Shown piece by piece: positions 8,754 through 52,153 of a stretch of DNA of 64,000 bases. The stretch lies in NCBI RefSeq assembly GCF_000186865.1, contig NW_008705564.1, positions 1,510,675-1,574,674 on the forward strand, written 5' to 3'. The number at the start of each line of letters is the position of its first letter. Positions within the stretch are counted from its first letter, which is position 1. The translations under genes and the position numbers were made by a program. Under the pieces are notes generated by a model. It made no database searches. It was given only the letters and a program-made list of their open reading frames with translations, and was not told the origin of the DNA. This stretch comes from Aureococcus anophagefferens. Lineage: Eukaryota; Sar; Pelagophyceae; Pelagomonadales; Pelagomonadaceae.

Positions 8754-10797
8754 TCACGCCGCCGCCGCGTCGTCGATCTCGTCGTGGACGTCGAAGGTCG
8801 CGACGGGCGACGCGTTCTGGACGTAGAAGGTCTGGCGGTGGGGCACGTAGGCCGGCGGCTTCTCGAAGGGCGCGTTGATCTTGTCGAGCTGGACGCTGTC
8901 GAAGATCTTGACGTCCGCGTTCGCGAGGGCCACGGCCAGCGTCCTCCGGCCTGGGCAGCACAAGGGTGATTCAACGTCGCGTCAACGTGAGTGTTCCGCG
9001 CGCGCGCGTTACGAAAAACACATCCACGCTTCGAGACCGTTCCGAGGGATGATCGCTCGTCCAAAAATCAGCCGAAACGAGTGGAAAACGGCCGAGATCG
9101 GAGCCTTTGAAGTTGGGAATTTCGCTCTCTTGTGCTGCCCGTCCTCCGGCGGTCGCAGGCGGCCCGCCAGTCCCTGTCCGCCGCGTCGACGGCGTCGATG
9201 AAGTAGTTCGGGTCCTGGATGGACTTGAGCGGCTCCGCGCGCCAGAGGTGGCGGTGGAGCACCGCGCCGATGGGCAGCGCGCGCGTCGGGTCCTCGGCGA
9301 CGCGCGCGTCGACGATGTGCGCGTCGTCGGGCAGGATGTGGTCGTCGAAGAAGATCTGGTGCACGCGCACGTCGCCGACCTCGACGAAGAGGGGCTTGCC
9401 GCCCCGGGCCGTCGCGCCGCTCCGCTCCCACCCGGAGAACGAGTCGCGGAGCGCGAGGGTCGTCCGCTCGTTCGGGTCGTGGAGCAGGCTCCGCAGCGCG
9501 TCGCGCGCGGCCTCGGGCGTCGCGTAGACGGACGTGACGGCGTCGCCTTTTGTTTCTTCGTACCAGGCGAGCGCGTCCGCGACGGTCGCCGACCGCGCGG
9601 GCGGCGGCTGGTCGAGCGTGCCGAGGATGAGCGCGACGCCGTCGCCGCCGTCGCGGAAAAAGGTGCCGCAGCCCGGCGCGCCGTCGCAGACCTTGATGCG
9701 CATGTCGACGTCGCCGTCGGACCCGTCGAGGACGATGTCCTCGTCGCCGGGGAACCTACCGGATGCGTCGGTGGTTCCATCGTGTTCCCGGTCAAAAGCT
9801 CTCGTACGTCGTCGCGGCCGCGGGACGCCGCGGCGCGCTCGGAGTGCGCGTTCCGGCAGAGGTCGTTGAACTCGTCGGCGATCTTCCCGAGATCCTTCCC
9901 GAAGGTCCGGAACGTCACGGAGAAGGACCGCCGCCGCTTCTTGAGTTGGCGCAGGCAGTGGAGGAAGGACTGGAGGAGCAGGGTCCGCGTCGGGAGCTGC
10001 GCGCGCAGGAGGTCCATGTTCTCCGCGAGGGAGTGGCCCGGCGCGCCCTCGCCCACGAAGCCCCGCAGCAGCTTTCGCCGCGCGTCCTTGCAGCCCCGGA
10101 CGTCGTCGGTGATGGGGATGCTCGCCGTGACGAAGGACGAGTAGGTGACCGCGGCGTCGTTCAACGGCGGCTTCTCCGGCCCGACGACCGCGGCGGGGTC
10201 CAGCGTCCACGTGCCGTCCTCCACGGACCCCCAGGCGTTGTTCGCTAAAACCGTCGCGAGCATGGCGTCGGCGTCGCTGCCCGTGGCCGAGTCGAGCATA
10301 AGCACGGTTTGATTTACGTCGAAGTTGAGGACGAGATGCGGCAGGTGGGCCGCGTCCGGCGCCGGCGGCGCCCGCAGCAGGCTCGCGAACTCGTCGGGCT
10401 GGATCTCGCCGTCGCCGTTGGCGTCGCACTCGCGGATGAGGGCGTTGACGGCGTCGACGTCCAGCGACGCGTCGCCTAAACGCAGCAAAGCCACGAGGAG
10501 CTCCGACGCGTCCAGCGCGCCCGACTCGTCGAGGTCCAGGTGGTTGAAGATCTTTTTGAGGTGGTCGCCGGCGCCGGTGCCGCTCAGCAGCGCGCGCGGC
10601 GACGCGAGCGCCGCGGCGGCGAGCAGGTCCTTGGCCTGCGACCGCGTCACCTCCTCCTGGCCGACGAAGGCGGCGTCGAAGCGCGTCAGCAGCGGCGTCG
10701 GGCACTTTTCCCGGAGCGTCATGATGGGCACCTTCGTCGCCTCATCGGCGAAGCAGCCCTCGAGCGCGTCGGCGCTGGCGGAGGCGGCGGCGCCCAT
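8754..10797 (-). CDS. EF-hand protein with HAD-like region
   Basis: Exons 10797-9839, 9755-9151 and 8950-8754 give 586 aa in one frame. The first intron (9756-9838) has a likely GC donor; the second is a family-A introner element. The chosen ATG gives MGAAAS, a possible N-myristoylation site. EF-hand loops lie at about 88-99 (DLDESGALDASE) and 125-136 (DANGDGEIQPDE), both with good Ca2+ ligands. From residue 155, VLNFDVNQTVLM resembles a HAD-type motif I (DxNxT), followed by SFSVTFRTFG, which could be motif II. The second half (GDEDIVLDGSDGDVDMRI, IFFDDHI) is conserved-looking but I do not recognise it. Ca2+-regulated phosphohydrolase is a hypothesis only. Confidence 0.7.
8951..9150 (-). mobile_element. 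introner element A1 (intron, 200 bp)
   Basis: Family-A element inside the EF-hand gene. The target duplication GCCGGAGGAC (minus strand) lies at 9150-9141 and again at 8950-8941. The element ends are GGGCAGCACAAG and CTTGTGCTGCCC(AG). The donor is the GC that opens the first target copy; the acceptor AG is the element's terminus. Splicing leaves one copy of GCCGGAGGAC and keeps the frame (phase 1). Confidence 0.92.
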
Positions 10798-10938
10798 CGA
10801 CGTCGGGGCAGGCGCTGGATGCGATTGGTGCGGCACCGTAGAAGGATGAAGACTTCATTGAAGTCACTTGTGTTGCTCTCGTAATCGACGTGTACTCGGC
10901 TCCGCCAAGCTCGTCGACGCGTGCCATCTCCACGCGCG

Positions 10939-11814
10939 ATGGCTCCCTTCGGCTTCGTCGGCATCGGCATCATGGGCGAGGGCATGGCGACGTGCCTGCT
11001 GAACGACGGGCGCAGCCTCGTCGTCTGGAACCGCGACGCGTCCAAGAGCGAGAAGCTCAAGCTGGCCTTCCCGCGGCTCGTCACGGTCGCCGCGACGGCG
11101 GCGACGGTCGTCGAGACCTGCGCCGTGACCTTCTCCATGCTCAGCACCCTCGAGGCGTCGCAGGCCGTCTTCCCGGCGCTCGTCGGCGCCGTCAAGGAGG
11201 GCAAGAGCATCGTCGACTGCGCGACGCTCACGCCGGAGCGCATGCGCGACATGCGCGGCGCGGTGACGCTCGCCGGCGGCCGCTTCCTCGAGGCGCCCGT
11301 GTCCGGGTCCAAGGCGCCGGCGGCCCAGGGCGCCCTCATCTTCCTCTGCGGCGGCGACGCGGCGCTCTACGCGGAGGTCAAGCCGGAGCTCGCCGTCATG
11401 GGCAAGGCCGACTTCCTCTTCGGCGACGTCGGCGCGGGCACGAAGATGAAGCTGGTGGTGAACATGGTCATGGGCGACATGATGGTCGCCCTCTCGGAGG
11501 GCCTGAGCCTCTGCGGCGCGGCGGGCCTGCCGGGCGACGCCGAGGCCGGCCTGCTCAAGGTGTTGGATTTGGGGATCATGTCCAACGGCATGTTCCGCCT
11601 CAAGGGGCCCAAGATGCTCGCGGGCGACCACGCGCCCAACTTCCCCCTGAAGCACGCCCAGAAGGACATGCGCTTCGCGCTGAATCTCGGGGACCAGGTC
11701 GGCCAGGCGCTGCCCGTGTCCGCGGCCGCGAACGCCGCGTTCCTCGCCGCGCGCGCGGAAAGCGGCGACGACGACTTCTCCGCGGTCTACGAGCAGCAGA
11801 AGGCGGCGAAGTAG
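10939..11814 (+). CDS. GLYR: glyoxylate/succinic semialdehyde reductase (beta-hydroxyacid dehydrogenase family)
   Basis: Single-exon gene, 291 aa, close to plant GLYR length. N-terminal Rossmann motif GFVGIGIMGEGMA for NADPH, with WNRDASK after strand 2. The substrate-binding signature is EAPVSGSKAPAAQGAL. The catalytic Lys is in GAGTKMKLVVNM, and the second conserved Lys is in FPLKHAQKDM. These match the GLYR branch rather than 3-hydroxyisobutyrate dehydrogenase, which lacks the SGSKxPA and PLKHxQKD forms. The enzyme reduces glyoxylate to glycolate and succinic semialdehyde to gamma-hydroxybutyrate, a detoxifying step linked to photorespiration and GABA metabolism. No targeting leader is visible, so a cytosolic form is likely. 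The ATG at 10939 directly precedes the Rossmann strand. Confidence 0.9.
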   Translation: MAPFGFVGIGIMGEGMATCLLNDGRSLVVWNRDASKSEKLKLAFPRLVTVAATAATVVETCAVTFSMLSTLEASQAVFPALVGAVKEGKSIVDCATLTPERMRDMRGAVTLAGGRFLEAPVSGSKAPAAQGALIFLCGGDAALYAEVKPELAVMGKADFLFGDVGAGTKMKLVVNMVMGDMMVALSEGLSLCGAAGLPGDAEAGLLKVLDLGIMSNGMFRLKGPKMLAGDHAPNFPLKHAQKDMRFALNLGDQVGQALPVSAAANAAFLAARAESGDDDFSAVYEQQKAAK

Positions 11815-11868
11815 GGCCGTAACGCGCCGCGGGGTCGCTCCCGCTATGTACGCAGGGGGGGGGCGATG

Positions 11869-14126
11869 CTAGGGGACGAGGAGCACCGCGGCGAGGATGG
11901 CCGCGGCGAGGAGCACGGGCGCCGCGGTCTTGCAGCCTTGGACGGTCGCCGGGTGCGTGAGGCAGGCCCAGGAGGGCTTCGTGCGCCGCTCGCGGAGGTC
12001 CTTGGCGACGCCGTAGACCGTGAGGAAGTAGGACACGCCGAGGCCCTGCCAGGCGGCGTTGAAGGCGTACTCGAGCCACGCCGGCGCGGTCCTCGCGGTC
12101 ACGAAGTTGTGGTGCACGAGGCCGAGGCCCGCCGCGGCGACGGCGACGGCGGCGACGGCGCCGCGCTTCGGCGTCGCGTCCACGAACACCGTGAAGACGG
12201 CGGCCTGGCACAGGACCGTCAAACCGCAGGCGAGGTAGATGACCGTCTCGAGGCGCGCGCGGAGCTCCCGGACCCGGGCCCGCTCGCTGTCGCCGACGTG
12301 CGACGCGCCGCCCGCGCCGGCCGTGAGCAGCACGAGGCTCGCGAGCTCGAGCGCGACGACGACGACGGCGAGCGTCGCCGTCGCGTCGAGCAGCACGCCC
12401 ACGTTCCGCGACTGCGCGATCTCGTCGAGCTCGTCGTGGATCTCGCCTGCGCGAAACTCACATCTTCCACCCGACTTCAACGTGAGCGTATGCGAAGGGC
12501 TCGACGCGAGCGCTTCGGCCCTGCTTCGAGAAGAGCGATCGATGCGTCCAAACATCGGCCGAATCGACGTCGACGTGGCCGAGCGAGAGGTTTCCAAAGT
12601 GTGGTCGGGACGTCCCAGACCGGCGGTTGAGTTCCACGCGGGATCTCGCGGCGCACGGCGTGGTTCCAGCGCACGAACGCGTGGATCGTGTGCTCGCCGT
12701 CGCTCGGCGACGGCTCCATGGCCACGCCCAGCGCGTCCAGGTCGGGCCGGTGGCGGACCGCCTCGCGCGGCCGCGCGCCCCGGCGGCCGCGGACCGCGCC
12801 CGCGACCTCGGCGGCCCCCGGGGCCCGCGCGGCCACGGCGACGCCGTCGCCCGCGCCCGACGGCACGAGCGCGTCGCCGCAGTCGACGCCGCCGCGGACG
12901 CGCACGGGCACCTGGCCCAGGAAGGCCACGAAGGCCCCCCGCGCGGCGACGGCGCGGTCCACGGGCATGCCCGCGGCCACCGACGGCGACGTCGACACGA
13001 TCATGCAGGGCCCGTCGCCGGACGTGTCGAGCGTGAGCCGCTGCTCGGGCGACCGGAGCTGGACGACGCTCCCCGGCGGCGGCGCGGCGAGGGCCGGCGG
13101 CGCCGGCGCGACCTTGCCGCCGCCGTCCGGCGGCGGCAGCGCGTCGGTGGACCACGCGAACCACTCCGCGTAGTCCGCGGCGTGCGGCGGCGTCGCGAGC
13201 TTTCCGTAGACGACGCCGTCGACGTGGACGTCGCCCGCGACGCGCAGGTCCTTGCGGAACGTCACGCAGTCGTCGTCGTCCCCGAGGGAGACCGCGCCCG
13301 CCTCCGACGCGCCCTCGCCCGGGGGCGCGTCGGCGGCCGGCGTCGCCCACGCGTGCATGATCGCCGCGTCGCCGAGCGTCGCGATCCGCGCGTCACCGTC
13401 GCCGCGCCGCGGGCGCTTGCGCGTCGCCGCGCCCGCCGGCGCCGCCCGGGGCTCCTTGGTGACGAGCGCGTAGAGGCGGCCGCGGTAGCCGTGGGGCACG
13501 GACTTGCCCGTCCGCGACGCGACGCCGTCGGGCCCCGCGACCCAGGCGCGCGCGCTCCGGCCCATGGGCCGCGCGACGACGCCCAGACCCGCCACGGGCG
13601 ACCACCAGATCTCGCTGTTGAGGATGGACTGGAACGTCACGGAGATGTCCGAGGGGCCGCTCGCGCAGTCCTCGACGTCGCCCGCGCGGCAGAGGCGCCG
13701 GCAGACGACGTAGCTCAGGGACCGCGCCGGCGCCAGGGGCGACGCGGACGGGCGGCGCGGCAGGCCCTCGAGGGCGACGGGGCTCTCCGCGCGGAGCGCT
13801 AAAAGCGCGTGGAACACGTCGGCCAAAGGCGCGGGCTCCGCGAGGCCGCCGCGGAGCTTCGCGACGGTGTCGGCGGCGACGCCCGCGTCCCAGGACACGC
13901 CCGCGGCCTCGGGCGAAACGTCCCGGGCGTCCTCGGCGCGCGCGTCCGTCGCCGCCGACGACGCGCCGCCCGACGCGCCGCCGCCCGGCGCGTCGTCGTC
14001 GTCGAGGAACTGGAGGATGTCCATGTCGTCGTCGATGGGGAAGTCGTCGAGCCCCGCCTCGAGGTCATTCGATGCGTCGACCACCGTCGTCGTCGTCGGT
14101 TCTTTGGCGCTGAAGCGGGGACGCAT
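11869..14126 (-). CDS. membrane protein with peptidase G2-like (tailspike-type) autoprotease domain
   Basis: Exons 14126-12650 and 12446-11869 (684 aa) join across a diverged family-B introner element. The N-terminus is acidic (DDDMDILQFLDDDD), like an activation region. The middle (about 110-260) is of unknown fold. Residues about 310-480 read RVAGDVHVDGVVYGKL, then PPHAADYAEWFAW, MIVSTSPSVA and FLGQVPVRVRGG, then CGDALVPSG. That is the layout of the peptidase G2/intramolecular-chaperone domain of phage tailspikes and is comparable to the autocleaving ICA domain of MYRF. The second exon encodes about five hydrophobic helices, ending LLAAAILAAVLLVP. Inference: an ER or other membrane-anchored precursor that trimerises and cuts itself to release its N-terminal part. 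Catalytic residues could not be assigned by eye. Confidence 0.62.
12447..12649 (-). mobile_element. introner element B5 (diverged family B, 203 bp)
   Basis: Target duplication GCGAGATC (minus strand) at 12649-12642 and 12446-12439. The donor GC belongs to the first copy, and the acceptor is GCGCAG at the element end. The interior is recognisable as family B (TTCAACGTGAGC, GATCGATGCGTCC, GTGGTCGGGACGTCCCAGAC) but with many substitutions relative to the copy at 20590-20800. Phase 1, frame restored. This is apparently an older insertion. Confidence 0.85.
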
Positions 14127-14350
14127 CGTTCGGCATTCCACGCTCCAAAGGGCTGCCGAAGTTGGCTGGGCGGTTGTTGATAAAGGAAACCTTGGTGCAT
14201 CGACGGCCGGGAGCTCCGCAGAGGTCTCGGCCAATTCGCGAACCGGAGCGCGCGAACGCTCGCGCGCAACGCGACGGGCCCGCAGCGCGCGACGCGACGA
14301 CGCGACGCACCCGCAACGCTCATCACAAAGCACACCTGCGACCGAGCAGC

Positions 14351-17207: not shown

Positions 17208-17352
17208 CTCTTCGCTGCTCTGCCTCTAGCGCGTTAGTAGACGGGCGCGTCCACGGGCGCGGGCAGCTCTTGGGGGCGCGTGTCGCGGCCCGGCGGCGGC
17301 TTGGGGGGTCGGGCCGCGCGGGCTCTTGGCGATCTCGCGGCGTTCGCGGGGC

Positions 17353-18996: not shown

Positions 18997-21181
18997 TTAC
19001 CTCTTCACGCCGCCCGTCCCGATGTCGAACTTGTGCTGCATGCCCAGGTCGGAGTGGGAGAAGATGTGGCAGTGGGCGAGCGAGGGCCCGTCGTAGTCGG
19101 CGGCGCGGAAGCGGATCTTCACCCAGCCCGGGGTTGGGAGGGTGATGGTGTCGCGCCAGTCCCCCACGGCGTAGTCGACCCCCTCGCCGTGGGACAGGTC
19201 CACCTGTGTGCAAATCAACCAGTGAGCTGGGACGTCCTGACCAAACTTTGAAATTCTCTAGCTCGGTCAAATCGAAGTCGATTCGGCTGATTTTTGGACG
19301 GATCGATTGCTCTCGACGAGTCTCACACTGCAGTCGGGTTGAATATTTGATTTGCACACAGAGGTCGACGATCTGGAAGTGGTTCGTGTGCAGGTGGAAG
19401 GGGTGGTTCGTGTCCTCCGGTCCGCCGTGCTTGACGTCGTTGTGCAGCGTCCACTCTACCACGTCGCCGACGTCGACGGATCCGTCGCCGTCGACGACGC
19501 GGAGGCCGTAGTCCGTGTAGGCGTTGCCGTCGCGGACGACAGACGCGCCGTCGTAGTACGCCAGCGTCGCGACGCGATCCGGCCGCTCACCGAGGAGCGA
19601 CCGGAAAAGCCGCGGAGGCGGCGCGTCGAGGCGCGGCGCCGCGGACGCGTCCGGCCGCCGCGAGGGCGTCGGCACCACATCCAAGATCTCGCCGTCGAAG
19701 ACGTCCGAGCCGCCGCCCAGGTAGTACGCGAGCGCGCCGCGCTTCGCGCTTCGGAGCGTGGCGGGCGCGTCGCAGCGCGCGAAGAGGTCGACGCGCGACC
19801 CCGGCGCGAGCACCTGGGCAGGAAAAGGGTGATTCAACGTCGCTTCAACGTGAGTGTTCCGCGCGCGCGCGTTCCGGGAAAAGTATCCACGCTTCGAGAC
19901 CGTTCCAAGAGATGATCGCTCGTCCAAAAATCAGCCGAAACGAGTGGAAACCGGCCGAGATCGGAGCCGTTGAAGTTGGGAATTTCGCTCTCTTTTCCTG
20001 CTCTGGCGAGCACGAGGGGCGCCGCGAAGGCGGGCCGCGGCTCCGGCAGCGCGACGCCGTCGCGCGCGACGACGGACGCCTCGCAGGCCGTCGCGTCCGA
20101 CAGCTCCAGCGACAGGATGTCGTTCGACCCGCCGTTGACCACGCGCCAGCGGAGCCACGCGCCCGCGGGCGGGCGGAACGTGGGCCGGAGCTCGCCGTTG
20201 ACCGTGAAGAAGCTCGCGTCGAGGGGCGCCCGCAGCTCGTCCTTGAGCGCCGCCGCGGCTTTCGTCGCGTCGGCGCCGACGGCGCCGCCGGCGACGACGG
20301 GCAGCCGGCTCCCGGACGCGACCGACGCCCAGGCGTAGTTCCGCGCCTTGCCGGCGACGAGGTTCGTCGACGCCAGGAGCATGACGACGTCCTCGGGGAA
20401 CCGGCCCGGGTCCGCGTCCGCGACGACGACGGCGCCGAGCATGCCGTAGGCCTGGAGGCCCGAGCTCCCCTGCGCGTGCGGGTGGTACCAGTAGGTGCCC
20501 GGCGCGTGGTCCGCGGGCAGGTGGTAGTCGTAGCGCTTCGACTCGCCCGGCGCCACGAGCGAGAAGACGTCGTCCTCGCGCGGCGACACCTGTGTGGAAA
20601 TCAACCGCTGGTTTGGGACGTCCCGACCAAACTTTGAAATGCTCTCGCTCGGTCGAATCGAAGTCGATTCGGCTGATTTTCGGACGGATCGATGGCTCTC
20701 GTCGAGTTCTCGAAGCACGGCCGAAGAGGCTGGTCCGAACCGTTCGATTACGCGCACATTGAAGTCGGGTTGAAGATTTGATTTGCACGCGGGGCGACGC
20801 GTGCCAGCCGTGCATGTGGAGCGACGTCGTGTTCGGGCGCCGGAGGCTGTCGCGCGCGCGCGCCGCGCCGTCCTCGGCGCCGAGGCCGTTGACGACCTCG
20901 ACGGTGACGGCGTCGCCCGGCGCCACGACGAGCGTCGGCCCGGGCGTCGACCGCTCGTAGCGCCGGCTCACGACGCCGAACGCGTCCGGCCCCGCGCCGA
21001 CGCGGAGCCGCGTCCGCAGCGCGCCGCCGCGCGACCGCCGCAGCGGCGCCTGGCGCAGGCCGTAGCGCCGCGCGAAGGGCGTCGTGCTGTCGACGCGCAC
21101 GTAGCTCAGCGTCATCAACGCGACGACGACGGCGAGGATCACGGCCGCGGCCGCGACGCCGCGCGCGAGGGCCGGGCGCAT
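18997..21181 (-). CDS. multicopper oxidase (laccase-like), membrane-anchored or secreted
   Basis: Four exons, 21181-20801, 20589-20014, 19813-19370 and 19203-18997 (381, 576, 444 and 207 nt, all phase 0), give 535 aa. Every intron is an introner element. All four copper motifs are present: HMHGWH (122-127), WYHPHAQG (HPH 163-165), HPFHLH (about 456-461) and HCHIFSHSDLGM (511-522, with the axial Met of the type 1 site). The family oxidises phenols or metal ions and reduces O2 to water at the trinuclear centre. A hydrophobic segment at residues 8-25 could be a signal anchor. A cell-surface phenol, Fe or Mn oxidase is likely; the substrate cannot be told from the sequence. Divergent from the LYR gene, with ~320 bp of shared promoter space. 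Confidence 0.9.
19204..19369 (-). mobile_element. introner element B1 (intron, 166 bp)
   Basis: Third intron of the oxidase. Target copies GTCGACCT (donor side, 19369-19362) and GTGGACCT (exon side, 19203-19196) differ by one base. The donor is the GT of the first copy. Terminal repeats CTGTGTGCAAATCAA and TTGATTTGCACACAG. Relative to the gene the shared core runs in reverse orientation. Confidence 0.92.
19814..20013 (-). mobile_element. introner element A2 (intron, 200 bp)
   Basis: Second intron of the oxidase. Target duplication GTGCTCGC at 20013-20006 and 19813-19806; the donor GT opens the first copy. Ends read AGAGCAGGAAAAG and CTTTTCCTGCCCAG. Nearly identical in its middle to element A1, 10 kb away. 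Phase 0. Confidence 0.93.
20590..20800 (-). mobile_element. introner element B2 (intron, 211 bp)
   Basis: First intron of the oxidase. Target copies GCGTCGCC (20800-20793) and GTGTCGCC (20589-20582): the donor copy now reads GC where the retained exon copy reads GT. Longest family-B copy in the window, with an extra internal segment around 20710-20750. Reverse core orientation. Phase 0. Confidence 0.9.
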
Positions 21182-22033: not shown

Positions 22034-23553
22034 ATGCGCGCGCTCGCCCTCCTCGCATTGGCAGCCGTCGCCGACGCCTGGGATGTCAACGCGACGGGCG
22101 CGTCGGCTGGCTGCGGCAGCGCGCCGCCGGTCTATCCCGGCGCTCCCGCGGCCAAGCTCGCCATGTGGGCGCCCGACGCCAACCCGCTGTTCCCCGACGG
22201 CTACGCCCAGCGCCACTACTTTTTGTGGGTGCCGCCGACCTACGACCCGAAGCAACCGGCGTCGCTCGTCGTCGACTTCCACGGCTTCTACGACAACGCC
22301 GGCGACGAGGTCGAGGAGTCCGGGTTGATCGCCGTCGCGACGGCCGCGGGGTTGAACTACGTCGTCGTCTACCCCGTGGGCTCCGGCGGCGGCGGCAGCG
22401 GCGACTCGAGGTCGTGGAACGTCGACGGCAACGGCCTCAACCGCGACGACGGCCCCGGCGGGCCCGTGTGCCGACTGCCGCGCGCGGCGTCCCGCGGCCG
22501 CGACGATTTTCGAGAGATTTGGGGTGGGCAAAACAATGAGGAATCGTGACCGTCATGCTCGGTAGGCCGCGCACGAAGGACGACGAGTACGTCTGCTACG
22601 AGTCGTGCAAGGTGACGCCCCGGGGCTGCGACGAGCGCCGGGGCTGCGACAGCGCGAGCTGCATGGCCGACTCGGCGTTCGTCACGGCGCTCCTGGCGAA
22701 GCTCAAGGGCGAGCTCTGCGTCGACCTCGGCGCCGTGCACCTCGCGGGCATCTCCGCCGGCGGCATGATGGCCTACCAGGCGGCGCTGGACAACCACGCG
22801 CAGATCGCGTCCGTCGCGCCCGTCGCCGGCTCGCGCTNNNNNNNNNNNNNNNNNNNNNNNNNNNNNNNNNNNNNNNNNNNNNNNNNNCCGCCGTCGCGGC
22901 GGACGCGGCGCGGCGTCGGCGCGGCGTCGGCGCGGCGTCGACCGCCCACGGCTCCGGAGGGCCGGGGCTGCAACAGCGCGAGCTGCATGGCCGACTCGGC
23001 GTTCGTCACGGCGCTCCTGGCGAAGCTCAAGGGCGAGCTCTGCGTCGACCTCGGCGCCGTGCACCTCGCGGGCATCTCCGCCGGCGGCATGATGGCCTAC
23101 CAGGCCGCGCTGGACAACCACGCGCAGATCGCGTCCGTCGCGCCCGTCGCCGGCTCGCGCTTCGTCGGCTTCAACGTTGCGCCCGCGTCGCCCGTCGCCG
23201 TCCTGTCGTCGCACGGCTACGCGGACTGGACGATCCCGGCGAACGCGTCCAACGGCGAGCCGGGCCCGAAGCCCCGGGGCGTCGCGGAGAGCTCGGACCA
23301 CTTCTTCTACGTCGAGGAGCCCGACATCCTGCGCAAGTTCTCCCGGAACTGCGACGGACGGACGGCCAAGTACCCCACGAAGTACGACGGCGCGCGCGAG
23401 CTCCAGTGCGTCCGGCCCTTTGGGAAGTGCGAGAGCGACATCGTCATGTGCGTCGGCCAGTGGGGCCACACGTGGCCCCTGCACAAGGAGTACCCGGAGG
23501 CCTGGGCGTCGTTGGCCCTCGACTTCTTCGCCGCGACGAAGCGGAGCGCCTAG
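22034..23553 (+). CDS. secreted PHB-depolymerase/feruloyl-esterase-like hydrolase, interrupted by assembly gap
   Basis: Exon 22034-22461 starts with a signal peptide (MRALALLALAAVADA). A 104-bp intron with a probable GC donor (22462-22565) follows, and the rest runs to TAG at 23551-23553. The alpha/beta-hydrolase landmarks are an oxyanion-side VVDFHGFYD, nucleophile elbow LAGISAGGMMAY, acid HGYADWTIP and base GHTWP, as in the LpqC/PHB depolymerase esterase family. Many Cys residues fit secretion. The segment 22637-22837 is repeated at 22961-23161 across a 50-N gap, so the protein probably contains it only once. Extracellular ester hydrolysis of polyesters or feruloylated polysaccharides is inferred. 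Confidence 0.8.
22637..23161. repeat. 201-bp duplicated segment flanking a 50-N gap
   Basis: 22637-22837 and 22961-23161 are the same sequence with two visible substitutions. The 50 Ns (22838-22887) begin exactly where copy one stops. This pattern suggests unmerged contig ends rather than a genuine duplication of the catalytic elbow. Confidence 0.85.
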
Positions 23554-23584
23554 TAGATCCCGACGTTTCGGCCCCCGCCCGGCG

Positions 23585-27400: not shown

Positions 27401-30400
27401 GCTGCTCGAGAAGCTCCGCGAGGAGCGCAAGCCCAAGTCGACGCTCTCCGAGGACGAGCGGCGCCTCTGTCTGCCGCTCATCGCCTACTTCGAGGGCAAG
27501 GCCTTCCCCCGGGAGCTCGCGGCGTGCTGGATGCGCTACTGGCGCTGCGGCCAGGCCGCGCTCTCGGAGCTCAAGGAGTTCGCGCACGAGAAGCGCAAGG
27601 ACAACCGCGCGGACTTGTTGTACGCCAAGCACGTGCGGCGCCGCGTCTTCAAGGCCTGGATCGGCGTCATTTTGGAGGAGCGCGCGGAGGCCGAGGCCGA
27701 GGCCGCCGCGCACGCGAAGATGCTCGAGCGCGCCAAGGAGAACGCGAAGAAGCAGCGCCTCAAGGACAAGCACGAGAAGGAGCAGGCGGAGAAGGCGGAG
27801 AAGGAGAAGCAGCAGCACCTCCTGCTCAACCCGCCGCCGCCGCCGGACAAGAGCCGCAAGTCGTTCACCGCGAAGCAGATCTTCGGGAACCGCGTCACGA
27901 CCGGCCACGTGCAGAAGGACAAGGGAACCGTCGCGCCCATCGACACGGGACACACGGCCGCGACGGGGTCCACGTCCCCGACGTCCGGCGGCACGCTCGA
28001 GACGGCGAGCCACGCGGAGCCCGCGTCGCCGAGCCACCCGGCGCCCGCGGCGCACCACGGCGGCGGCCACGGCCACCACAAGAAGCACCACAAGCACCAC
28101 CACAAGAAAAAAAAGTCGAAGAAGGAGGAGGAGGCGGCCTTCGACCCCTACGCCGACGACCGGAACCAGCGCGCGCTCCAGGCGAAGCGCGTCGAGGCGT
28201 CGCTCGCGCACGCCAGGGCAGCAAAAGAGAGCGAAATTCCCAACTTCAAAGGCTCCTATCTCGGCCGTTTTCCACTCGTTTTGGCTGACTTTTGGACGAG
28301 CGATCATCTCTCGGAACTGTCTCGAAGCGTTGATGCTTTTTTTGGAACGCGCGCGCGCGGAAAACTCACGTTGAAGCGACGTTGAATCACTCTTTTGCCG
28401 CCCAGGCGCACGCGCGCGAGCTCGCGACGCGCGTCCGCGCGACCGCGTCCGTGGAGCGCGAGGCCGACAAGCGCAACGACCGCTTCAAGAGCGCGGAGCA
28501 GGCGGAGATCCAGGCCTTCTTGAACGACAAGGACGAGCAGCTCGCGTCGGCGAAGGAGAAGGCGGACCAGCACATCTCCGAGTTCGCGGAGCACGCCGCG
28601 CGGAAGATGGTCGAGACCGTGCACCGCATCCGCCGCGAGGCGGCCCTCGCCTACGACCGCCAGCTCCTGAAGCACGCGTTGCGCGTGCTGCGGCTGCCTT
28701 GGGCGGAGAAGCGGTCCGCGGCGCTCATGCGGCGCCAGATTTTGCGGAACCGGCTCGCGATCTGCGCGCGCTACCGCCAGCTCGACCGGGGCATGCCGCG
28801 CTTCCGGCGGTTACGCGTCAAGTGGGTCGTCTGGAACACGTGGCTCAAGTTGTTGAGCAACCACTACGTCTTCCGGAGCCCCCACATCAACTCGAAGCTC
28901 GTCCGGCGGCGCGACGTCGCGCTCCGGGCGACGGCGCTGCTCCGCGAGCGCGGCGCGGCGCGCGCGCGGACCATCCCCGGCGACGCCTTCGCGGACCTGC
29001 GGGGCTGCTTCTGCCGCTGGGCCTGCTACGTCATGAACCGCATCCGGTGGCGCGAGATGCGGACGCTCGGGGAATTGCGTTTGGACCTCCGCACGAAGAC
29101 GATCTGCTTCATGGCCTTCCGGCGCGAGGCGGGCTTCGGCGACGCCGAGGGCCGGAGCCCCCTGCTCCGGCGCTGCGAGGCGGATTTATGCGAGTACGCG
29201 GCGCGCTTCGTCGCCACGCGGCGGAAGCGCGACCTCCTCCGCCAGCTCCAGGGCAGGACAAGAGAGCGAAATTCCCAACTTCAAAGCCTCATATCTCGGC
29301 CGTTTTCCACTCGTTTCGGCTGATTTTTGGACGAACGATCATCTCTCGGAACGCTCTCGAAGCGTGGATGCTTTTTCCGGAACGCGCGCGCGCGGAACAC
29401 TCACTTTGAAGCGACGTTGAATCTCTCTTGTCCTGCCCAGGCCAGCTCCGCGCGTCGAACGCGATCCACGCCAAGGCCGTGCGCGACAAGGCGCGCAACG
29501 GGCCGAGCTTCCGCAAGTTCCTGGGCACCGTGCGCAAGGAGACGGAGCTGCGCCTGCTCTTCGAGCAGAAGCTCCTGCTCGACGCGTTCGAGATCCGCGG
29601 GACCGTGACGTGCGAGGACCACGACGTGCCCATGGAGCTGCCCATCAACGGCGGCGGCGAGCTTTTGTTCAAGGACCCCGTCGCGCCGCCGGGCTCGAAG
29701 ATCGGCGCCATCGCGGTCTTCGCGAAGCGCGGCCACGGCGTCCTCGGCATCGGCGCGACGGTCCAGGCCGACGGCGACGCGGCGACGATGCCCTTCCACG
29801 GCGGCAGCAGCGGGTTGAAGGAGACCTTCGAGCTCAAGCAGGGCGAGGCCCTGAGCGCCATCGAGCTCACGCTGTCGCCGAGCGTCATCGAGGCCGTCCG
29901 ATTCGAGGCGTCCGTCTTCGGCAACGTCGCCGCGAACAAGAAGACGGGCGGCATCATCGCGACCATGTTCGAGAACAAGCGCTGGATGGGCCTCGCGAAG
30001 ACGAAGAGCCGCTGGAGCAAGTGGTTCGGGTCGTCGGTGTCGTCCGACGCGCGGACCGTCGTCGTCCGGGGCCCTCCCGAGACGGCGATCGTCGCCCTGC
30101 TCGGCACGGCGACGACGTCGCGCGTCGTCGGCCTCGGCGTCGTCTACCGCACGATCCAGCAGGAGGGCGTCTTCTCGCCCTACTGGACGGCGCCTTTACG
30201 GTTGAGCCGCGCGGACGCGGCCACGGCGCTGCCGCCCATCGACGGCAAGGAGAAGCCGGCCGCGGCGCCGCCGCGCGCGCGGTCGTCGAGCCGCGAGAAG
30301 CAAAAAATCGTGAGCCACGCCCTCGAGGACGGCGGCGTCGCCACGGGCGAGGAGCAGCACGTCCTCGAGTTCGTCACCGTGCTGCGCTACCGCCGCGTCG

Positions 30401-37911: not shown

Positions 37912-38740
37912 CGCCGCCGGGCGCCGCGCCGCGCCGCGAGCCGCCGCCGCCGCCGCCGCGCGACGGCGGCTTCGATCCGCGCGTCGAGGCCATCCTCGCG
38001 CGCTACCGCCCCGCGGCGGCCGTCTCGGGCGCCGACGAGGCGAAAGGCGCGGACTCCGACGACGCGATGGTCGTCGAGGTCCTCGCGTCGCTCGGGCTCT
38101 CGAACTACCTTCCGCTCTTCCGATCGCAGGAGATCGACGACGACGCGCTCCTCGGCCTCGAGGCCGGCGACCTCAGCGACATCGGCGTCGCGCCGGGCGC
38201 GGCCGCGCGCATCCTCGCCGCCATCGCCGCGGCGCGCCTGGTGCAGCGGCGGGCTCCGCCGCGCGCGGCTGATGCCGCCGCGGCGGACGCGGCCGTCGAC
38301 GACTCCGCGCGGCGCGTCGCGGAGCTCGAACTCGCGGAGCCGCCGGACGACCTGCTCTGCCCCATTTCCTTCGAAATCATGAAAGATCCCGTGATGGCCG
38401 ACGACGGCAACACGTACGAGCCTGTGTGCAAATCAACCACTGGTTTGGCCAAACTTCTCTAGCTCGGTCAAATCGAAGTCGATTTGGCTGATTTTTGGAC
38501 TCATCGATTGCGCACAGCGAAAGTGCTTGTTTCAAAACATTCGAATACGCGCCCATTGAAGTCGGGTTGAAGATCTGATTTGCACACAGGTACGAGCGCG
38601 CGTGCATCGAGGCCTGGTTCCGCAAGGGCAAGCGGACGTCGCCCGCGACGGGCGCGCCGCTCGCGTCGCCCCAGCTCCGGCCGAACCTCCTCGTCCGGCG
38701 GCTCACGGCGAGCTTCCTCGAGAGCCGGAGGGGCCTCTAG
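37912..38740 (+). CDS. SAM-domain/U-box protein (E3 ubiquitin ligase type), 5' end in gap
   Basis: The frame enters from the gap. Exon 1 runs to 38413 and exon 2 is 38590-38740, separated by a family-B introner element. A SAM domain (VVEVLASLGLSNYLPLF, LLGLEAGDLSDIGV) is followed by a U-box: LLCPISFEIMKDPVMADD, then GNTYERACIEAWFRKGKRT, then SPATGAPL and LRPNLLVRRL. The insertion sits inside the U-box between Thr and Tyr of the NTYER segment, and correct splicing is needed for the fold. U-boxes recruit E2 enzymes. It may be the C-terminus of the HMG-box gene at 34129 or a separate gene. Confidence 0.8.
38414..38589 (+). mobile_element. introner element B3 (intron, 176 bp)
   Basis: Target duplication GTACGAGC at 38414-38421 and 38590-38597. 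Donor GT from copy one, acceptor GCACACAG. Terminal repeats CTGTGTGCAAATCAA and its complement. Phase 2. Lies within the U-box coding sequence. Confidence 0.94.
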
Positions 38741-38835: not shown

Positions 38836-40330
38836 CTACGCGCGCTCCCCCCGGAGCGCGACGAGCAGCCCCGAGAGCACGACGACGCTCGCCCCCGTGA
38901 AGGCCGCGGAGACGAGGAAGGCGGCGCCGTAGCCGTAGTCGTGGACGAGGAACGCGCCGATGGCCGCGGACCCCGCCCAGGTGCCCCGGTTCACGGACTC
39001 GACGGCGTTCCAGCGGCCGCGGCTCTTCTTCGCCGTGTGGTCCATGAGGACGGCCTTCTCGATGGCGCGCGTGCCGACGGGGACGCCGAGGTAGCAGAGG
39101 AAGGCGCCGCCGGAGACGCGGACGTCGCCGCTCAGCGCGAGCGCCGCGAGCGCCGCGGGCTCGATGAGTCGCACGAGGACCATCGTCGGCGCGCGGCCGA
39201 CGGCGCGCGCGAGCGCGTCGCAGGCGAGGGGCGCGCCGACGCTCAGGACCTGCGCGGCGAGGACGACGGCCGTGAGCGTCGTCGGTTTGAGGCCGAAGCC
39301 GTCCGCGAAGCGCACGGGGATGTACCTGCGCGGTCAGGGTTCCGAGCGGTAAAGGAAACGACGGCGCCGAAGCCGCGCCGCATCGTCGCGCCCTTGCCGA
39401 CGACGCGGAGCACGACGGCGCCGAGGATGATGAGCGACGGCCGCCGGTACCAGGGGACGCGCGGCGGCGCCGCGGCGCCGGCCCCCGGGAGCAGCGGCCG
39501 CGAGAGGTCCGGCTCCTCGGGCGGCGGGTCGCGGACGGCCGCGAGCAGGGCCACGCTCAGGCAGAGCACGACGCCGACGGCCATGATCTTCCGCAGGCCG
39601 CCGAGCGCCCAGTCGTCGCCGGCGACGGCGAAGAACGCGAGGTTCGCCGCCTGGCCTGTGTGGAAATCAACCACTGGTTTGGGGGGTCCTCACCAAACTT
39701 CAGAACTCTCTATCTCGGTCAAAACAATACGGTAACATTGAAGTGGGGTTGAAGATTTGATTTCCACACAGCGCCTGGCCCGCGACGTTGCCGAGGCGCC
39801 AGAGCGTCGACTTGGCGACGAAGGCGAACTGGCGCTCCGGGCCCCGGGCCGCGGACGACGCGAGCACCGAGTCCGTGAAGATGCCCTGGGCGGAGAGGAG
39901 CAACCCCCAGAGGCCGAGCGCGCCGTAGGTCGCGGCGGAGTTCGCCGCGTCCGAAACGAAGGGCCGCCGGAGCGCGCCGAGGACCGCGGCGAGCGCGACG
40001 ACGCCGACGGCCGACGGTGAAGTTGCGCGCGCCGCGCACGGACTCGGAGCGGTCGAACCAGGTCCCGAAGGCCGGCGCGGCCGCGAGCGCGACGAGGCCC
40101 TGGAGCGACTGCACGAAGCCGACGGATCGGCGGCCCATGGACTCGTCGAGGAAGACGGGGAAGACGTTGCGTTCCCAGGTGGACCAGCCCGCGTGGAACA
40201 GGAAGCCGTAGATGGCGATGAGTTTGCAGTTCTTGTGGAGACTCCGCCACTTGGCGCGAACCGTTCGGTCCGCGAAGTCGGGCTCGATGGTCGTGGGCAC
40301 GCGCAGGTAGTGGTCGGTCGCCTCGATCAT
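38836..40330 (-). CDS. major facilitator superfamily transporter-like protein, one-base insertion
   Basis: Exons 40330-39780, 39655-39382 and 39325-38836. The introns are a short introner element (39656-39779) and a 56-bp intron with a GC donor (39326-39381) whose removal gives GATMYIPVRFADGFG. About ten hydrophobic helices are visible (for example LIAIYGFLFHAGW, LQGLVALAAAPAFGTWFD, LLLSAQGIFT, AAIGAFLVHDYGYGAAFLV). Helix content and the helix 2-3 GTWFDR loop fit MFS permeases. Exon 1 needs loss of one base near 40005 (GGCCGTCGGC) to stay in frame. The lengths then agree exactly with the phases of both introns, so a sequencing error is likely. Substrate unknown. Confidence 0.7.
39656..39779 (-). 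mobile_element. introner element B4 (short, 124 bp)
   Basis: Target duplication GCCAGGCG at 39779-39772 and 39655-39648. Donor GC, acceptor CCACACAG. Both family-B ends are intact but the internal core (GGCTGATTTTTGGACGG) is deleted. Phase 1. Confidence 0.9.
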
Positions 40331-47340: not shown

Positions 47341-47528
47341 ATTGCCGCCGAAACCCGCGCGAGATGAGCCGCCCTCGCTGCGAGGTCGAACCACCCATTC
47401 CCGCCTTTCCACGCCCCTCCGCGTCCCGCCCTTCCGAAGTTCCTACCTGCCCCAGCCTTAAACTCAACACCATGAATATGCAAGAGATGCGCGCGCGCGC
47501 CCCAGGAGGCAGATTTGAAACAAAACAA

Positions 47529-49871
47529 CTAGCCGCTACCCGCCTCCAAGAACGGGCACACGTCCGTCTCGCCCCCGACGCTGTCCCAGGGCACGAGGCG
47601 GTAGGCGGCCTGGCGGTCCTGGTCCGCCTTGGGCGTCGGGATCGCGACGGTCGTCACCGTCGACCGCCCGTCGACGTTGACCTCGAACGCGAACGCCGTG
47701 CCCCGACTGTCGTACTTGTTCGTGTCGTCGAGGGACGTGAACGCGACGAGGTAGTCGCCGTTGGCGAGGGCCGCCGCGGAGCCGCCGACGAGGTTGTAGA
47801 GGTCGTCGGTCTTGAAGTTGACGTCGAGCGCGGACGGCCACTCGAACTGCCAGCGGACCCTGGCGACGCGCGCGGCCGCGTCGAGCTCGTAGGCGATGGC
47901 CCGCGAGTAGCAGCCGGACGTGTTCGCCGTCGCGCAGCCCGGGCGGTCGTCGCCGTCGTCGATGACGAGCAGGTCGCCGTTGGGCAGCTGCAGCGCCGAG
48001 TGCGGGTCGTAGAACTTTTCGTCGTCGTCCTCGAAGGCGTACCAGATCCCGCCGTCGCCGACGCCGGCGTCCGACGCGTTGAGCGTCGACGACAGGGTCC
48101 ACTGGGCGCCCGAGCCGTCGTGCGCGAGGGACCAGATCGTGTTGAGCGTCCGCGACGCGACGAGGACGTTCTCCTCGACGCCGACGGACACGGCACGTCN
48201 CTTCACGTGGGTGGTTCCACGTTCCATAAAAAGCATTAACGCTTCGCGAGCGCTCCGAGAGATGATCGCTCGTCCAAAAAGCAGCCGAAACGAGTGGGAA
48301 ACCGCCATGAGAGAAGTTCGCGCCCTTTTCCCGCCCCGGACGACGCGTGGTGGTACTCGACGCCCTCCATGGTCGCGTTGCCGCTGCACCACATGTCGAC
48401 GTCGTCCCAGTTCTTCGTGACGAAGGGCGTCGCCGACCCGGCCACGGGCTTGGCGAGGTCGAAGAGGTCGTAGACGACGTCGAGGCCTGGGCAGCAAAAG
48501 GGTGCGAAATTCCCAACTTCAAAGGCTCCTATCTCGGTCGTTTTCCGCTCGTTTTGGCTGATTTTTGGACGAGCGATCATCTCTCGGAGCGTTCTCGAAG
48601 CGTGGGTGCTGTTTCCGAAACGCGCGCGCGCGGAAAACTCACGTTGAAGCGACGTTGAATCACCCTTTTGCTGCCCTGGTCGAGGCCGGCCTCGGTCCAC
48701 CGCGCGATCTGCGACCCGAGGAACGCGTCGGCCTTGACGGTCGCGTAACCGCCGTCGTCGTCCGTGCCCCAGAGCAGGTCGACGCCGGGGATGCGGCGCG
48801 CGGCGTAGCGCGTCGTCCAGACGCCCGCCGCGGCGCCGGCGCCGCCCTTTTTCGCCGTCGCGCGGTCGACGCGGCACTCGTGGCTGACCATGTTGTAGTT
48901 CAGGGGCGAGCCCGCGCAGGCGCTGATGAACTGCTTCCGGATGTCGCCGAGGGGCGAGATCTCCTGGAGCTGCGAGTTGCCGTTGTACGTCCGCCCGTCG
49001 TCGCGGTACGTCTTCGCGCCGTCGAGCTTGGTCCCGTCGTCGCGGGCCACCAACACGACCCCGTTGTCGGGCAGGAAGTCCCAGGCCTCGAGGCTCCACG
49101 CGTGGTAGTACCACACGACGTACCCTTCCGCGTCGATGGCCAGCAAGCCGTCGAACTCCTTCGTGCGATTGTGCGTCGAGTTGTACTTGGACCTACGACG
49201 CCGCGTTCCCGGCCCGAATCTCTCGAAGCAACGGACGCCGAGCGCGACTCGTAGGGGTCGTCGAAGCCCAAATGGTCCTCCTGGACGGCCATGGTCAGCA
49301 CGTTCCAGGACGGGCTGCCGGCGACCGTCGCGTAGGCGCGGGACGTCGCGTTGCCGTCGAGGCCGCGCGGTCCCTCGTCGAAGGCCGCCCAGCCCGTGCC
49401 CTGCGTCTCGAAGGCGCCGCGCCACTCGATGGTCGTCGCGCCGTCGACGGACACGACCAATGCGACGTCGTAGAAGGTCGACGGCCGCAGGCGCAGCAGC
49501 GCGAAGGACGTCGCGGAGCAGTCCGACGAGAGCCAGAGCGGCGGCAGCGACGACTCCGCCGGGGCGTAGCGCGCGGCGACGGTGCAGCCCTCCGCCGACG
49601 CGACGTCGAAGGTGAGATTGGCGTACAAATTCATCTTCGCCGAGGCGGGCGGCGCGTGGAGCGCCGGCGTCGACAGGAGCAGCCCCCGCGCGTCGCCGAA
49701 GCTGCCGCAGGAGCCGCCCAGCGCCTGGAGCCGCAGCGACGCTTGCGACGGCGCGACAGTCACCGCGACGTAGGCGGCCACGGCGATGGCGGCCGCCACG
49801 GCGAGGACCCTGCCCCGCGCCGGCCCCATCATCATCCAATAGCCCGCGGCCGTATCTTCTTCACCATGCAT
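47529..49871 (-). CDS. arylsulfotransferase-like membrane/secreted protein
   Basis: Exons 49871-49246, 49192-48687, 48486 to about 48353, and about 48194-47529. An N-terminal hydrophobic anchor (VLAVAAAIAVAAYVAVTV) is followed by a lumenal fibronectin-like region, then ASST-like motifs: GYVVWYYH, NGVVLVARDDGTKL, SHECRVDRA, VLVASRTLNTIW, DPHSALQLPNGDLLVIDDG and SRAIAYELDAAARV. It is a paralog of 7014-8709 and has the fuller length. Introns are one 53-bp GC-AG intron and two family-A introner elements, the second degenerate and containing an N. Predicted to act outside the cytoplasm on phenolic sulfate esters; the catalytic His was not pinned down. Confidence 0.75.
48195..48352 (-). mobile_element. 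introner element A5 (degenerate, limits approximate)
   Basis: The core GATGATCGCTCGTCC, then AAAAAGCAGCCGAAACGAGT, and the end CCCTTTTCCCGCCC are family A. The other end (CACGTGGGTGGTTCCACG) has diverged and an undetermined base lies at 48200. No clean target duplication or AG could be placed. Surrounding coding frames imply it is still intronic. Confidence 0.7.
48487..48686 (-). mobile_element. introner element A6 (intron, 200 bp, reverse orientation)
   Basis: Target duplication GCCTCGAC (minus strand) at 48686-48679 and 48486-48479. Donor GC from the first copy; acceptor CTGCCCAG. Unlike the other family-A copies, its core runs antisense to the gene, so the opposite terminal repeat supplies the AG. 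Phase 1. Confidence 0.93.
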
Positions 49872-49936
49872 CGTAATCGTGCGGGGCGAATCAAAGGTGG
49901 TGGCGGGAGAGAGGCTGGGCGCCGCGGTTTAGCCCC

Positions 49937-52153
49937 ATGGGGAACGACGTCGCCAAGCAGGCGGTGTCGCCGCTCGTCGGCGCCGTCGCCGCCGTCCAGG
50001 GCAAGAACAAGCTGCGGTCCGTCTTCGGCTCCAAGCCCGCGGCGGGCTCCATCGTCTTCGTCGGGAGCCAGACCTTCCAGAACTGGGACTCCCTGAAGAA
50101 GGACATGCACGGCCTGCCCGTCGTCAACTGCGGCTTCGTCGGCGCCATGTCGAAGCACCTCGTCACGTACGCGCACCACGTCGTCGCGCTGCGGCCGCGG
50201 CTCATCGTCTGGTGCTGCGGCGCGGCGGACCTCGAGTGGGGCCGCGCGCCGGAGCAGCCCTTCGAGACCTTCAAGCGCGCGCTGCGCGAGTTCCGCGGCG
50301 TGCACCCGGAGCTGCCCGTGGTCTACGTGTCGCCGATCGTGACGCCGCACCACAAGGACCTGGGGCAAGCGCTCTGCCAGAAGTTCGCGCGCTTGCACCG
50401 CCTCGTGGCCGACTACGCGACGGGCGACGCGCTCCTCTACGTCGTCGACGTCAACGACAAGGCCTTCTCCACGGACGCCTTCAACTACGAGGTCGACCGC
50501 ACGCGCCTCACGGCCGGGGGCAACCGCCTCCTCGCCGCGGACGGCGCGGGAAAAGGGTGCGAGATTCCCAACTTCCAAGGCTCCTATCTCGGCCGGTTTC
50601 CACTCGTTTCGGCTGATTTTTGGACGAGCGATCATCTCTCGGAGCGCTCTCGAAGCGCATATGTTTATCCCGGAACGCGCGTGCGCGGAACACACACTTT
50701 AGAGCGACGTTGAATCATCCTTTTCCTGCCCAGGCCGCGGAGCTGTACCCGACGGTCGCGCGCGCCTACGCGACGTCGACGACGAACCTCCCCCACAGCC
50801 CCGACGCCAAGGCCAACGAGATCGTCATGGAGTGCCTCGACGACCACGTCGCCAAGCACGTGCCCGACGACGACGTGCACCACCACGTCGCGGAGCCGTC
50901 GCCGACCGCGCGGGAAGAGCGCGCGACGCGCCCGACTTCAAAGGCTCCTCTCTCGGCCGTGTTCCACTCGTTTCGGCTGATTTTTGGACGAGCGATCGGC
51001 TCTCGGAGCGCTTTCGAAGCGTCGATGCTCGCTTTGAAACGCACGCGCGCGGAACACTCACGTTGAACCACAATTTCCCCGCCCAGGTCGCCGAGCCGCG
51101 CGAACTCGCTGACGCGCGGCGGCTCGAACCGCGGGTCGACGGCCTTCACCTGCATGTCGCCCACGAGCGCCAAGGCCATGATCGACGTCGCCAAGGAGGC
51201 GTCGGAGTCGCGCGACGGCGCCGTCGACGCCGGCGCGGCCGCCGCGGCCGCGGCGAAGGCGGACGCGCCGCCGTCGCCCGAGGAGGAGCCCAAGGCGGAG
51301 CCGCCGGCGCCGCCGCCCGTGCCCATCGAGGGCCTCGAGTACGAGGAGCCCCCCGTCGAGGCGCCGGGCCTGACCATCGCCCCGCCGGCCGCGGACGAGA
51401 GCGAGGACCCGCGGGGGCCCGCGAAGGCCGCGGCGCCCGAGGAGCCGCCCCCGGAGACGCCGCCGTACCCGCTGGCCGCCGGCGACGACGACGACCCCTG
51501 GGAGGAGAAGTTCGACGAGCACTCCGGCCTGCCCTACTTCGTGCACCGCGTCACGGGCGAGTCCGCGTGGGACAAGCCGGGCGCGGAGCTGTGCCGAATT
51601 CAACAACTATTTGGGTTATTCCAGCCAAACTTCAAACCTCTCTAGCTCGGTCACATCGAAGTCGTTTCGGCTGATTTTTGGACGGATCGTTTTCTCTCGG
51701 CGGGTTCTTTTTAGACAGCGACAAAAACTATGTCAAAACCGTGCGAATACGGAAGTCGGGTTGAATATTTTTGTTTCCCGCCCAGGCACGGAGGACGCGT
51801 ACGCGGAGGCGCCCGACGGCGCGCCCCTCGACGACCTCGACGACCTCGGGTCCGAGGAGAGCGTCTACGAGACGACGACGGAGAACAACCCCGGCGCCTG
51901 GGGGACCGTCGTCGACTCGAAGCCCGACGAGGAGGGCGAGGACGGCATGGCGTCCATGCTCGGCGCGATGATGGCGCGCGACGACGACGCGGAGACGGTC
52001 GGGTCCGAGGAGAGCGTCTACGAGCACACGACGGAGAGCAACCCGGGCATGTGGGGGACCGTCGTCGACTCGAAGCCCGACGAGGAGGGCGACGACGGGA
52101 TGGCGTCCATGCTCGCGGGCATGATGGCCACCGGCGACGAGGGCAAGCCCTAG
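49937..52153 (+). CDS. SGNH-hydrolase-like (probably inactive) protein with WW domain
   Basis: Exons 49937-50533, 50734-50897, 51087-51580 and 51786-52153 (540 aa) are separated by three introner elements. MGNDVA may be myristoylated. Residues 38-215 align with GDSL/SGNH folds (block I FVGSQTFQNW, block II NCGFVGA, block III GAADLEWG, final DRTRLTAGGNRLLAA). The usual nucleophile Ser is Gln45, the block III Asn is Ala97 and the expected His is Arg, so catalysis is unlikely. A WW domain (about 405-440, WEEKFDEHSGLPYFVH, GESAWDKP) binds Pro-rich ligands. The C-terminus repeats a 51-residue unit twice (SEESVYE, WGTVVDSKPDEEG, MASML). Probably a scaffold. Confidence 0.75.
50534..50733 (+). mobile_element. 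introner element A7 (intron, 200 bp)
   Basis: Target duplication GCCGCGGA at 50534-50541 and 50734-50741. Donor GC, acceptor CTGCCCAG. Phase 0; the spliced reading is LLAAELYP. Confidence 0.93.
50898..51086 (+). mobile_element. introner element A8 (intron, 189 bp)
   Basis: Target duplication GTCGCCGA at 50898-50905 and 51087-51094. Donor GT, acceptor CCGCCCAG. Phase 2. The 5' portion has lost part of the AAATTCCCAACTTC block seen in other copies. Confidence 0.9.
51581..51785 (+). mobile_element. introner element B6 (intron, 205 bp)
   Basis: Target copies GCGCGGAG (51581) and GCACGGAG (51786) differ by one base. Donor GC, acceptor CCGCCCAG. The interior is family B (CTCTCTAGCTCGGTCACATC, GAAGTCGGGTTGAATATT), but the 3' terminus resembles the family-A end, so it looks like a hybrid. 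Phase 1, directly after the WW domain. Confidence 0.85.
51848..52130 (+). repeat. two copies of a 153-bp coding repeat
   Basis: 51848 and 52001 begin the same unit (GGGTCCGAGGAGAGCGTCTA), encoding SEESVYExTTExNPGxWGTV. The high nucleotide identity indicates a recent in-frame duplication. Confidence 0.85.

Follow-up and report, generated by a model that had tools for sequence, protein, structure and literature searches.

We analyzed a 64,000-nucleotide stretch of the Aureococcus anophagefferens genome (RefSeq assembly GCF_000186865.1, contig NW_008705564.1, positions 1,510,675 to 1,574,674 of the forward strand), referred to below as the window. It holds eight copies of a repeated, transposon-like intron (introner), designated family A, which fall in five genes: a multicopper oxidase gene, an arylsulfotransferase-like gene, a GDSL-type hydrolase + WW gene, a gene shared by the copies at 28206 and 29241, and the gene with the copy at 8951, for which there was no Pfam match. 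The copies are listed here; TSD denotes the target site duplication, and S and A denote two lineages with the splice acceptor on opposite ends of the element.

8951..9150, minus strand: family-A introner, S lineage, 200 nt; a 10-bp repeat, GCCGGAGGAC, replaces the usual 8-bp TSD plus CA; the frame closes
19814..20013, minus strand: S-lineage family-A introner with TSD GTGCTCGC and a GT donor, in the multicopper oxidase gene; site apparently empty in protein P0004
28206..28405, plus strand: family-A introner, S lineage; TSD GCGCACGC, GC donor
29241..29440, plus strand: family-A introner, S lineage, in the same gene as the 28206 copy; TSD GCCAGCTC
48195..48346, minus strand: family-A introner, decayed, in the arylsulfotransferase-like gene; beside an N, it has lost its TSD and 3' inverted repeat, and its splice sites are uncertain
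48487..48686, splice strand minus, interior plus: family-A introner, A lineage, in the arylsulfotransferase-like gene; TSD (splice strand) GCCTCGAC
50534..50733, plus strand: family-A introner, diverged, with TSD GCCGCGGA, in the GDSL-type hydrolase + WW gene
50898..51086, plus strand: family-A introner of 189 nt, diverged, with TSD GTCGCCGA, in the gene that also holds the 50534 copy

A preliminary description of this DNA had grouped the eight repeats into one family, and this was borne out: a profile built from the window copies recovered all eight at E values of 1e-45 to 1e-77 (a result that is circular by construction), and the family is independently abundant genome-wide. The common ends, and the target duplications that it noted in seven copies, were likewise found, with clear inverted repeats and TSDs in seven of the eight and variants in the diverged copies. 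Several particulars required correction. The copies had been called near-identical, but ungapped window pairs are only 73 to 92% alike, and copies 98% alike occur elsewhere in the genome. The genes number five rather than four, and six copies (8951, 19814, 28206, 29241, 48487, and 50534), not five, are exactly 200 bp. The element given as an ordinary copy at 48195 to 48352 is decayed; it has an N at 48200 and neither a 3' inverted repeat nor a TSD, and its donor is likely at 48346. The eight-copy account also left out a sister family, B, present at six places in the window, as well as the reversed interior of the 48487 copy.

On the splice strand, the family-A element reads CA, then GGGCAG[C/G]A[A/C]AAG … CTT[T/G]T[G/C]CTGCCC, then AG. 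It is usually 192 bp long and lies between 8-bp direct repeats, so that the intron, which begins with the upstream TSD and ends with the AG of the element, spans 200 nt. Its terminal inverted repeats (TIRs) are 12 bp. In a search of the 49-Mb genome, the inverted-repeat pattern CAGGGCAGNAAAAG, with at most one mismatch, occurred 1174 + 1147 times on the two strands, versus 16 + 24 times for the reversed control. Exact 22-base left ends numbered 1,114 (316 of the GGGTG type and 798 of the GAGAG type). An impression that one strand dominates on contig C2 was dropped: an opposite-strand exact match (L018) lay outside the matches listed, and the whole counts are even (1174:1147).

The main sample consisted of 61 copies scoring at least 150 bits: six from the window, seven from an even-step sample of 200 kb spaced along one contig, and 48 chosen by similarity to two queries (the best 40 of 2002 and the best 40 of 1824 first-look candidates scored). 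Twenty additional copies with the rarer second base, picked among the first 100 listed for each left-end type, brought the total to 81. The 8-bp TSD had at most two mismatches in 58 of the 61 copies, and AG was present at the acceptor end in all 81. The CA after the TSD was missing from eight of the 61. In four of these (L028:2460, window 9140, L008:1690, and L020:1396) the two bases that come next in the exon stand in its place, as if the donor-side end had been converted from the exon; L025:785 may be a longer case, with a repeat of 10 bp or more, and the other three copies show no such match.

Reading frame, splice sites, and the oxidase product

Sixty of the 61 copies had enough flanking sequence for a coding test, and in 57 both flanks were clearly coding. 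The coding strand was the one predicted by the terminal AG in 56 of the 57, and the reading phase closed over the excision in 54 of those 56, where one third would be expected (p ~1e-23). The four other tested copies comprised two with weak flanks (L041 and L043, which, with L025, fell below the flank threshold), one with a flank called on the opposite strand (L055), and one with a noncoding downstream flank (L025). Random sampling (4000 draws) of the window and the contig sample gave coding-like flanks on a single strand in 56.5% and, in addition, phase agreement in 55.7%; since 56 of the 60 copies have such flanks, placement in coding sequence is enriched. The earlier statement that the copies lie inside coding sequence thus held for the most part. 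With 1,114 exact left ends in the genome, family A comprises many similar introns at unrelated gene positions. In the 20 additional copies, the coding strand (taken as the best-scoring one) always fit the AG end, one copy (L124) lacking phase agreement.

The exon-side copy of the TSD started with G[C/T], half of each, in all 58 copies with at most two TSD differences; the three copies left out of this count have a shifted register. The remaining six TSD positions followed no comparable rule across the 58 sites. The donor-side copy started with GY in 57 of the 60 tested (30 GC and 27 GT), the exceptions being the three shifted-register copies, so about half of the family-A donors are GC. GY makes up 19% of coding dinucleotides. 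A co-opted 5' splice site would be expected to produce such a GY bias at the start of the TSD, and one splice site appears to come from the element and the other from the duplicated target.

Further detail comes from individual window sites. Open reading frames 24438 and 28334 are shifted in frame as excision of 200 nt at the 28206 copy predicts. Relatives read an uninterrupted VEYHHVSSVSVGVEEN or similar at the 48195 site, and P0124, P0126, and P0127 cross the 48487 site without an insert. P0137 aligns across the 50534 site; models P0135 and P0136 read AADGAGKG from that element and VAEPSPSRANS across the 50898 copy.

The multicopper oxidase gene provides an intron-free product for comparison. 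It holds one family-A introner (19814) and two of family B (19204 and 20590), and its spliced reading carries multicopper-oxidase domains. The predicted protein aligned gap-free to P0001 (535 amino acids, from a 1683-bp contig) and agreed with it at 533 of 535 residues, the two differing residues falling within the last four. It was 97% identical to P0002. The solved laccase 6w2k aligned without gaps over two of the three introner sites, with a gap near the third (19204). The P0001 contig may be cDNA or an introner-free allele; exact removal is required in either case.

These data bear on where the donor lies. The true donor might instead be inside the element, four bases in (GG/GCAG), so that each insertion would add 12 nt (the TSD plus CAGG) to the mRNA. 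Because 12 is a multiple of three, frame closure cannot separate this inner donor from one at the TSD. The annotation of P0003 has four-residue additions at family-B sites (ASPR and PVWT), and Gozashti et al. 2022 (PMC9860276) describe a 12-bp addition for a family in a metagenome-assembled genome of Aureococcus sp. However, with an inner donor there would be no need for the GY rule that holds at the start of the TSD in 58 of 58 copies. Neither P0001 nor P0002 retains extra residues at any of the oxidase sites (three in all), which speaks against a donor within the element, and the 48487 site shows none in P0124, P0126, or P0127. We consider an inner donor very improbable. Still less credible is the notion that these are ordinary, unspliced miniature inverted-repeat transposable elements (MITEs) that disrupt genes or lie in pseudogenes: some public gene models do read into elements, and splicing is deduced here from sequence and frame, but the agreement of strand and phase, the intron-free P0001 contig, and the oxidase domains in the spliced reading all speak against it.

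Protein P0004 was 97% identical to the oxidase over 59% of the query and has family-B translation at both ends: its C-terminal tail matched family B at 81% over 43 residues (E, 2e-19), and its short N-terminal tail matched more weakly (E, 8e-4 and 0.035). P0004 therefore was most likely read from unspliced DNA. At the 19814 site it reads …APLVLAPGSR…, with the family-A element absent and the target residues present once, and after VVEWT it carries a family-B element that the window gene lacks. P0004 thus represents an apparent empty allele at 19814. P0124, from an 11-kb contig, reads through both the 48487 and 48195 sites with no insert. Both proteins provide signs of intron presence/absence variation, and the empty-site comparison proposed in the preliminary description yielded, at the protein level, apparent empty alleles with the target residues once (P0004 at 19814 and P0124 at 48487 and 48195). 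Its identification of introner elements is supported by anatomy, coding frame, the intron-free contig, and the apparent empty allele. Its suggestion of recent or continuing gain stood in its first part: nine of the 61 copies have an identical interior (162 columns used), and a 97%-identical sequence lacks the insertion at 19814; this support does not reach present-day activity.

Family B and the polarity of splicing

Family B has the ends CTGTGTG[G/C]AAATC … CACACAG, a symmetric inverted repeat with AG at each end. It is akin to family A, whose profile finds family-B copies with E values down to 1.3e-10, and CGGCTGATTTTTGGACG is common to both. The copies in the window are as follows.

12447..12649, minus strand: family-B introner, 195-bp element plus TSD GCGAGATC (splice strand)
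19204..19369, minus strand: family-B introner, 158-bp element plus TSD, in the multicopper oxidase gene
20590..20800, minus strand: family-B introner, 203-bp element plus TSD, in the multicopper oxidase gene
38414..38589, plus strand: family-B introner, 168-bp element plus TSD GTACGAGC
39656..39779, minus strand as judged from the TSD only: internally deleted family-B introner, 116-bp element
51581..51785, plus strand: family-B introner in the GDSL-type hydrolase + WW gene

Outside the window, a family-B copy at L011:8073-8323 has its core tandemly repeated inside.

We sampled 52 family-B copies, 39 of them picked by similarity to one query (the best 40 of 1727 candidates scored). The coding strand, called independently of the ends, was forward in 23 and reverse in 29. 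The phase closed in 50 of the 52, and 49 of the 50 copies with a readable TSD had GY there. The acceptor-side AG was intact in all 52 copies, and the donor-side terminal dinucleotide was altered in 10 (p, 0.002). Such an asymmetry would be expected if selection for splicing acted on just one of the two ends.

A tree of the inner columns, with the interiors aligned one way, splits family A into two groups. Group 1 has 38 rows, including 37 S copies (AG at the 3' end of the interior); its support is 91/80, which we grade as open. Group 2 has 22 rows, including 21 A copies (acceptor on the opposite end), with support of 97/91. Both read CA … AG on the splice strand. Read on the interior strand, the 81 copies comprise 48 with CA…AG, 24 with CT…TG, and nine with a changed donor-side dinucleotide (CG, AC, or TC); CT…AG or CA…TG ends occur in none of the 81. 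Family A therefore appears as two mirror-image polarity lineages, an arrangement that, judged from the open-access literature, is possibly new.

Two clear copies make the case for exchange of interiors between end pairs. The interior of L032 is identical to the A consensus and that of L109 has one difference, and both have S ends, the right end of L109 also being S-like. A double end change with the interior unchanged is unlikely to arise by point mutation; gap-repair conversion or inversion between the inverted repeats fits better. Rare left ends were considered as proof of end switching and rejected: among 15 S-ended GGGTG copies, only L109 is near the A-lineage consensus. Fourteen of the 15 are of standard length, and all but L109 are diverged and intermediate, with at least 10 differences from that consensus, so most are not recent switches.

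One idea that would connect these observations is that splicing polarity evolves. A two-acceptor family such as B would splice either way, selection would keep the acceptor end while the donor side drifts, and later source elements would be polar; family A would represent the end stage, its interiors exchangeable between end pairs. We offer this tentatively and are slightly more inclined to doubt it than to accept it. If it is true, the ends of the elements record selection for splicing, with the acceptor kept and the donor side free, and part of the history of intron birth is readable from sequence alone. We also dropped a hairpin model, in which the acceptor AG would be exposed in the RNA through a mismatch on the facing strand: the inverted repeat of family B is matched, and this family appears to be spliced nonetheless. 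The initial 150 nt of one copy folded no more stably than shuffled sequences (z, 0.80).

Transposition and known introners

Taken together, the inverted repeats, TSDs, GY rule, and restored frames indicate that family A is, with high probability, a nonautonomous cut-and-paste DNA transposon (MITE-like) turned spliceosomal intron on insertion. A transposase would make an 8-bp staggered cut at the target. Given a coding-strand target that starts with G[C/T], the 5' splice site would be provided by the upstream TSD copy and the 3' splice site by the terminal AG of the element, which would restore the RNA exactly. The acceptor end would set the polarity of splicing, on opposite ends in the two family-A lineages, and family B, with AG at both ends, could splice either way. 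Every copy would be spliced, and insertions that cannot be spliced would presumably be purged.

Spread by RNA-mediated reverse splicing rather than DNA transposition would suit copies that lie mostly in coding sequence and on the splice strand. Reverse splicing is not expected to yield 8-bp target duplications or inverted repeats, however, and both are present in most copies; family B also occurs in both orientations relative to genes. We regard this route as having next to no likelihood.

Some observations tell against the transposon-derived intron as set out above. Most copies were picked by likeness to query copies, not at random. The phase fails in two of 56 family-A copies (L064 and L045, whose TSDs are shifted in register) and in two of 52 family-B copies. 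The P0001 contig could be an introner-free allele and not cDNA, and P0004 could derive from partly spliced RNA. Some public A. anophagefferens gene models (P0003, P0007, P0121, P0122, P0135, and P0136) seem to place donors within elements or to run into element sequence, so other donors are possible. Finally, profiles for hAT (PF05699), KDZ, MULE, and IS1595 transposases gave zero matches, those for hAT and KDZ matching no control genome either; since these two had no positive control, the absence of a transposase does not follow. The introner-like residues in the public models (ASPR, WLICTQ, QGSKRVIQRRFNV, and AADGAGKG) are apparently annotation errors caused by wrong donor choice, and they call for caution with the public A. 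anophagefferens models, some of which appear to include residues translated from introners.

A search for the ends of an autonomous partner, meaning the inverted repeat with foreign bases behind it at two test positions, gave one place versus one in the reversed control; that place may be a mutated copy, and a partner sharing the subterminal bases would escape this search. Family A has the 8-bp TSD and CAGGG-like end of a hAT MITE, and we take its ends to resemble those of hAT elements. The hAT target consensus is nTnnnnAn. A hAT origin was entertained when the first TSDs read GYnnnnRn and was rejected, the inner TSD positions having no such preference over 58 sites; position 7 (A, 0.12; C, 0.38; G, 0.40; T, 0.10) departs from the consensus. 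There was no Rfam match in 48100-51900, which spans family-A copies and one family-B copy, and, as regards viral carriage, there were zero exact matches in viral_contigs for one family-A and one family-B string.

Introners are already known in kind and in this species. Huff, Zilberman, and Roy (2016, Nature 538:533) reportedly described those of A. anophagefferens as short nonautonomous transposons with TIRs and TSDs, with one splice site said to lie in the element and the other to be co-opted from the duplicated target. The elements described here share the species, type, and splice-site division of that account, and nothing here contradicts it; the polarity lineages of family A, the end asymmetry of family B, the shared A/B core, and the exchange of interiors may go beyond it. 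The close matches that bear names likewise are from A. anophagefferens. The window thus offers a clean instance of a well-supported mechanism of mass intron gain, with signs of presence/absence between close sequences.

Other published systems were compared by description, from passages of the sources. The introners of Huff et al. 2016 are treated second-hand in PMC7789003, and A. anophagefferens introners are stated in PMC10228655 to insert in both orientations. Family 4 of Aureococcus sp. (TARA), in the parts of Gozashti et al. 2022 (PMC9860276) that deal with it, shares the genus and the 8-bp TSD with family A, whereas both of its splice sites are in the element and 12 bp are added; in family A the donor is in the TSD and nothing is added. 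Symbiodinium introners, from the same source, have the 3' splice site in the element and the 5' site from the TSD, the same division as in family A, but differ in their 4-bp TSD and unrelated host. In Pelagomonas calceolata, of the same algal class, the intron length peak of about 210 bp reported in a portion of PMC9481584 is, in length, close to family B (203 + 8 nt).

Two other repeats were noted. A 205-bp repeat, 99% identical, occurs at window positions 22633-22837 and 22957-23161, flanking a 50-N gap (22838-22887), and is possibly an artefact of assembly. The other, a third kind of repeated element about 80 bp long, occurs at window 22487-22566, L012:833-911, L012:4032-4110, and L014:5892-5972; it has an apparent 8-bp direct repeat (GCCAGAAC at L012:833) and is possibly another introner family.

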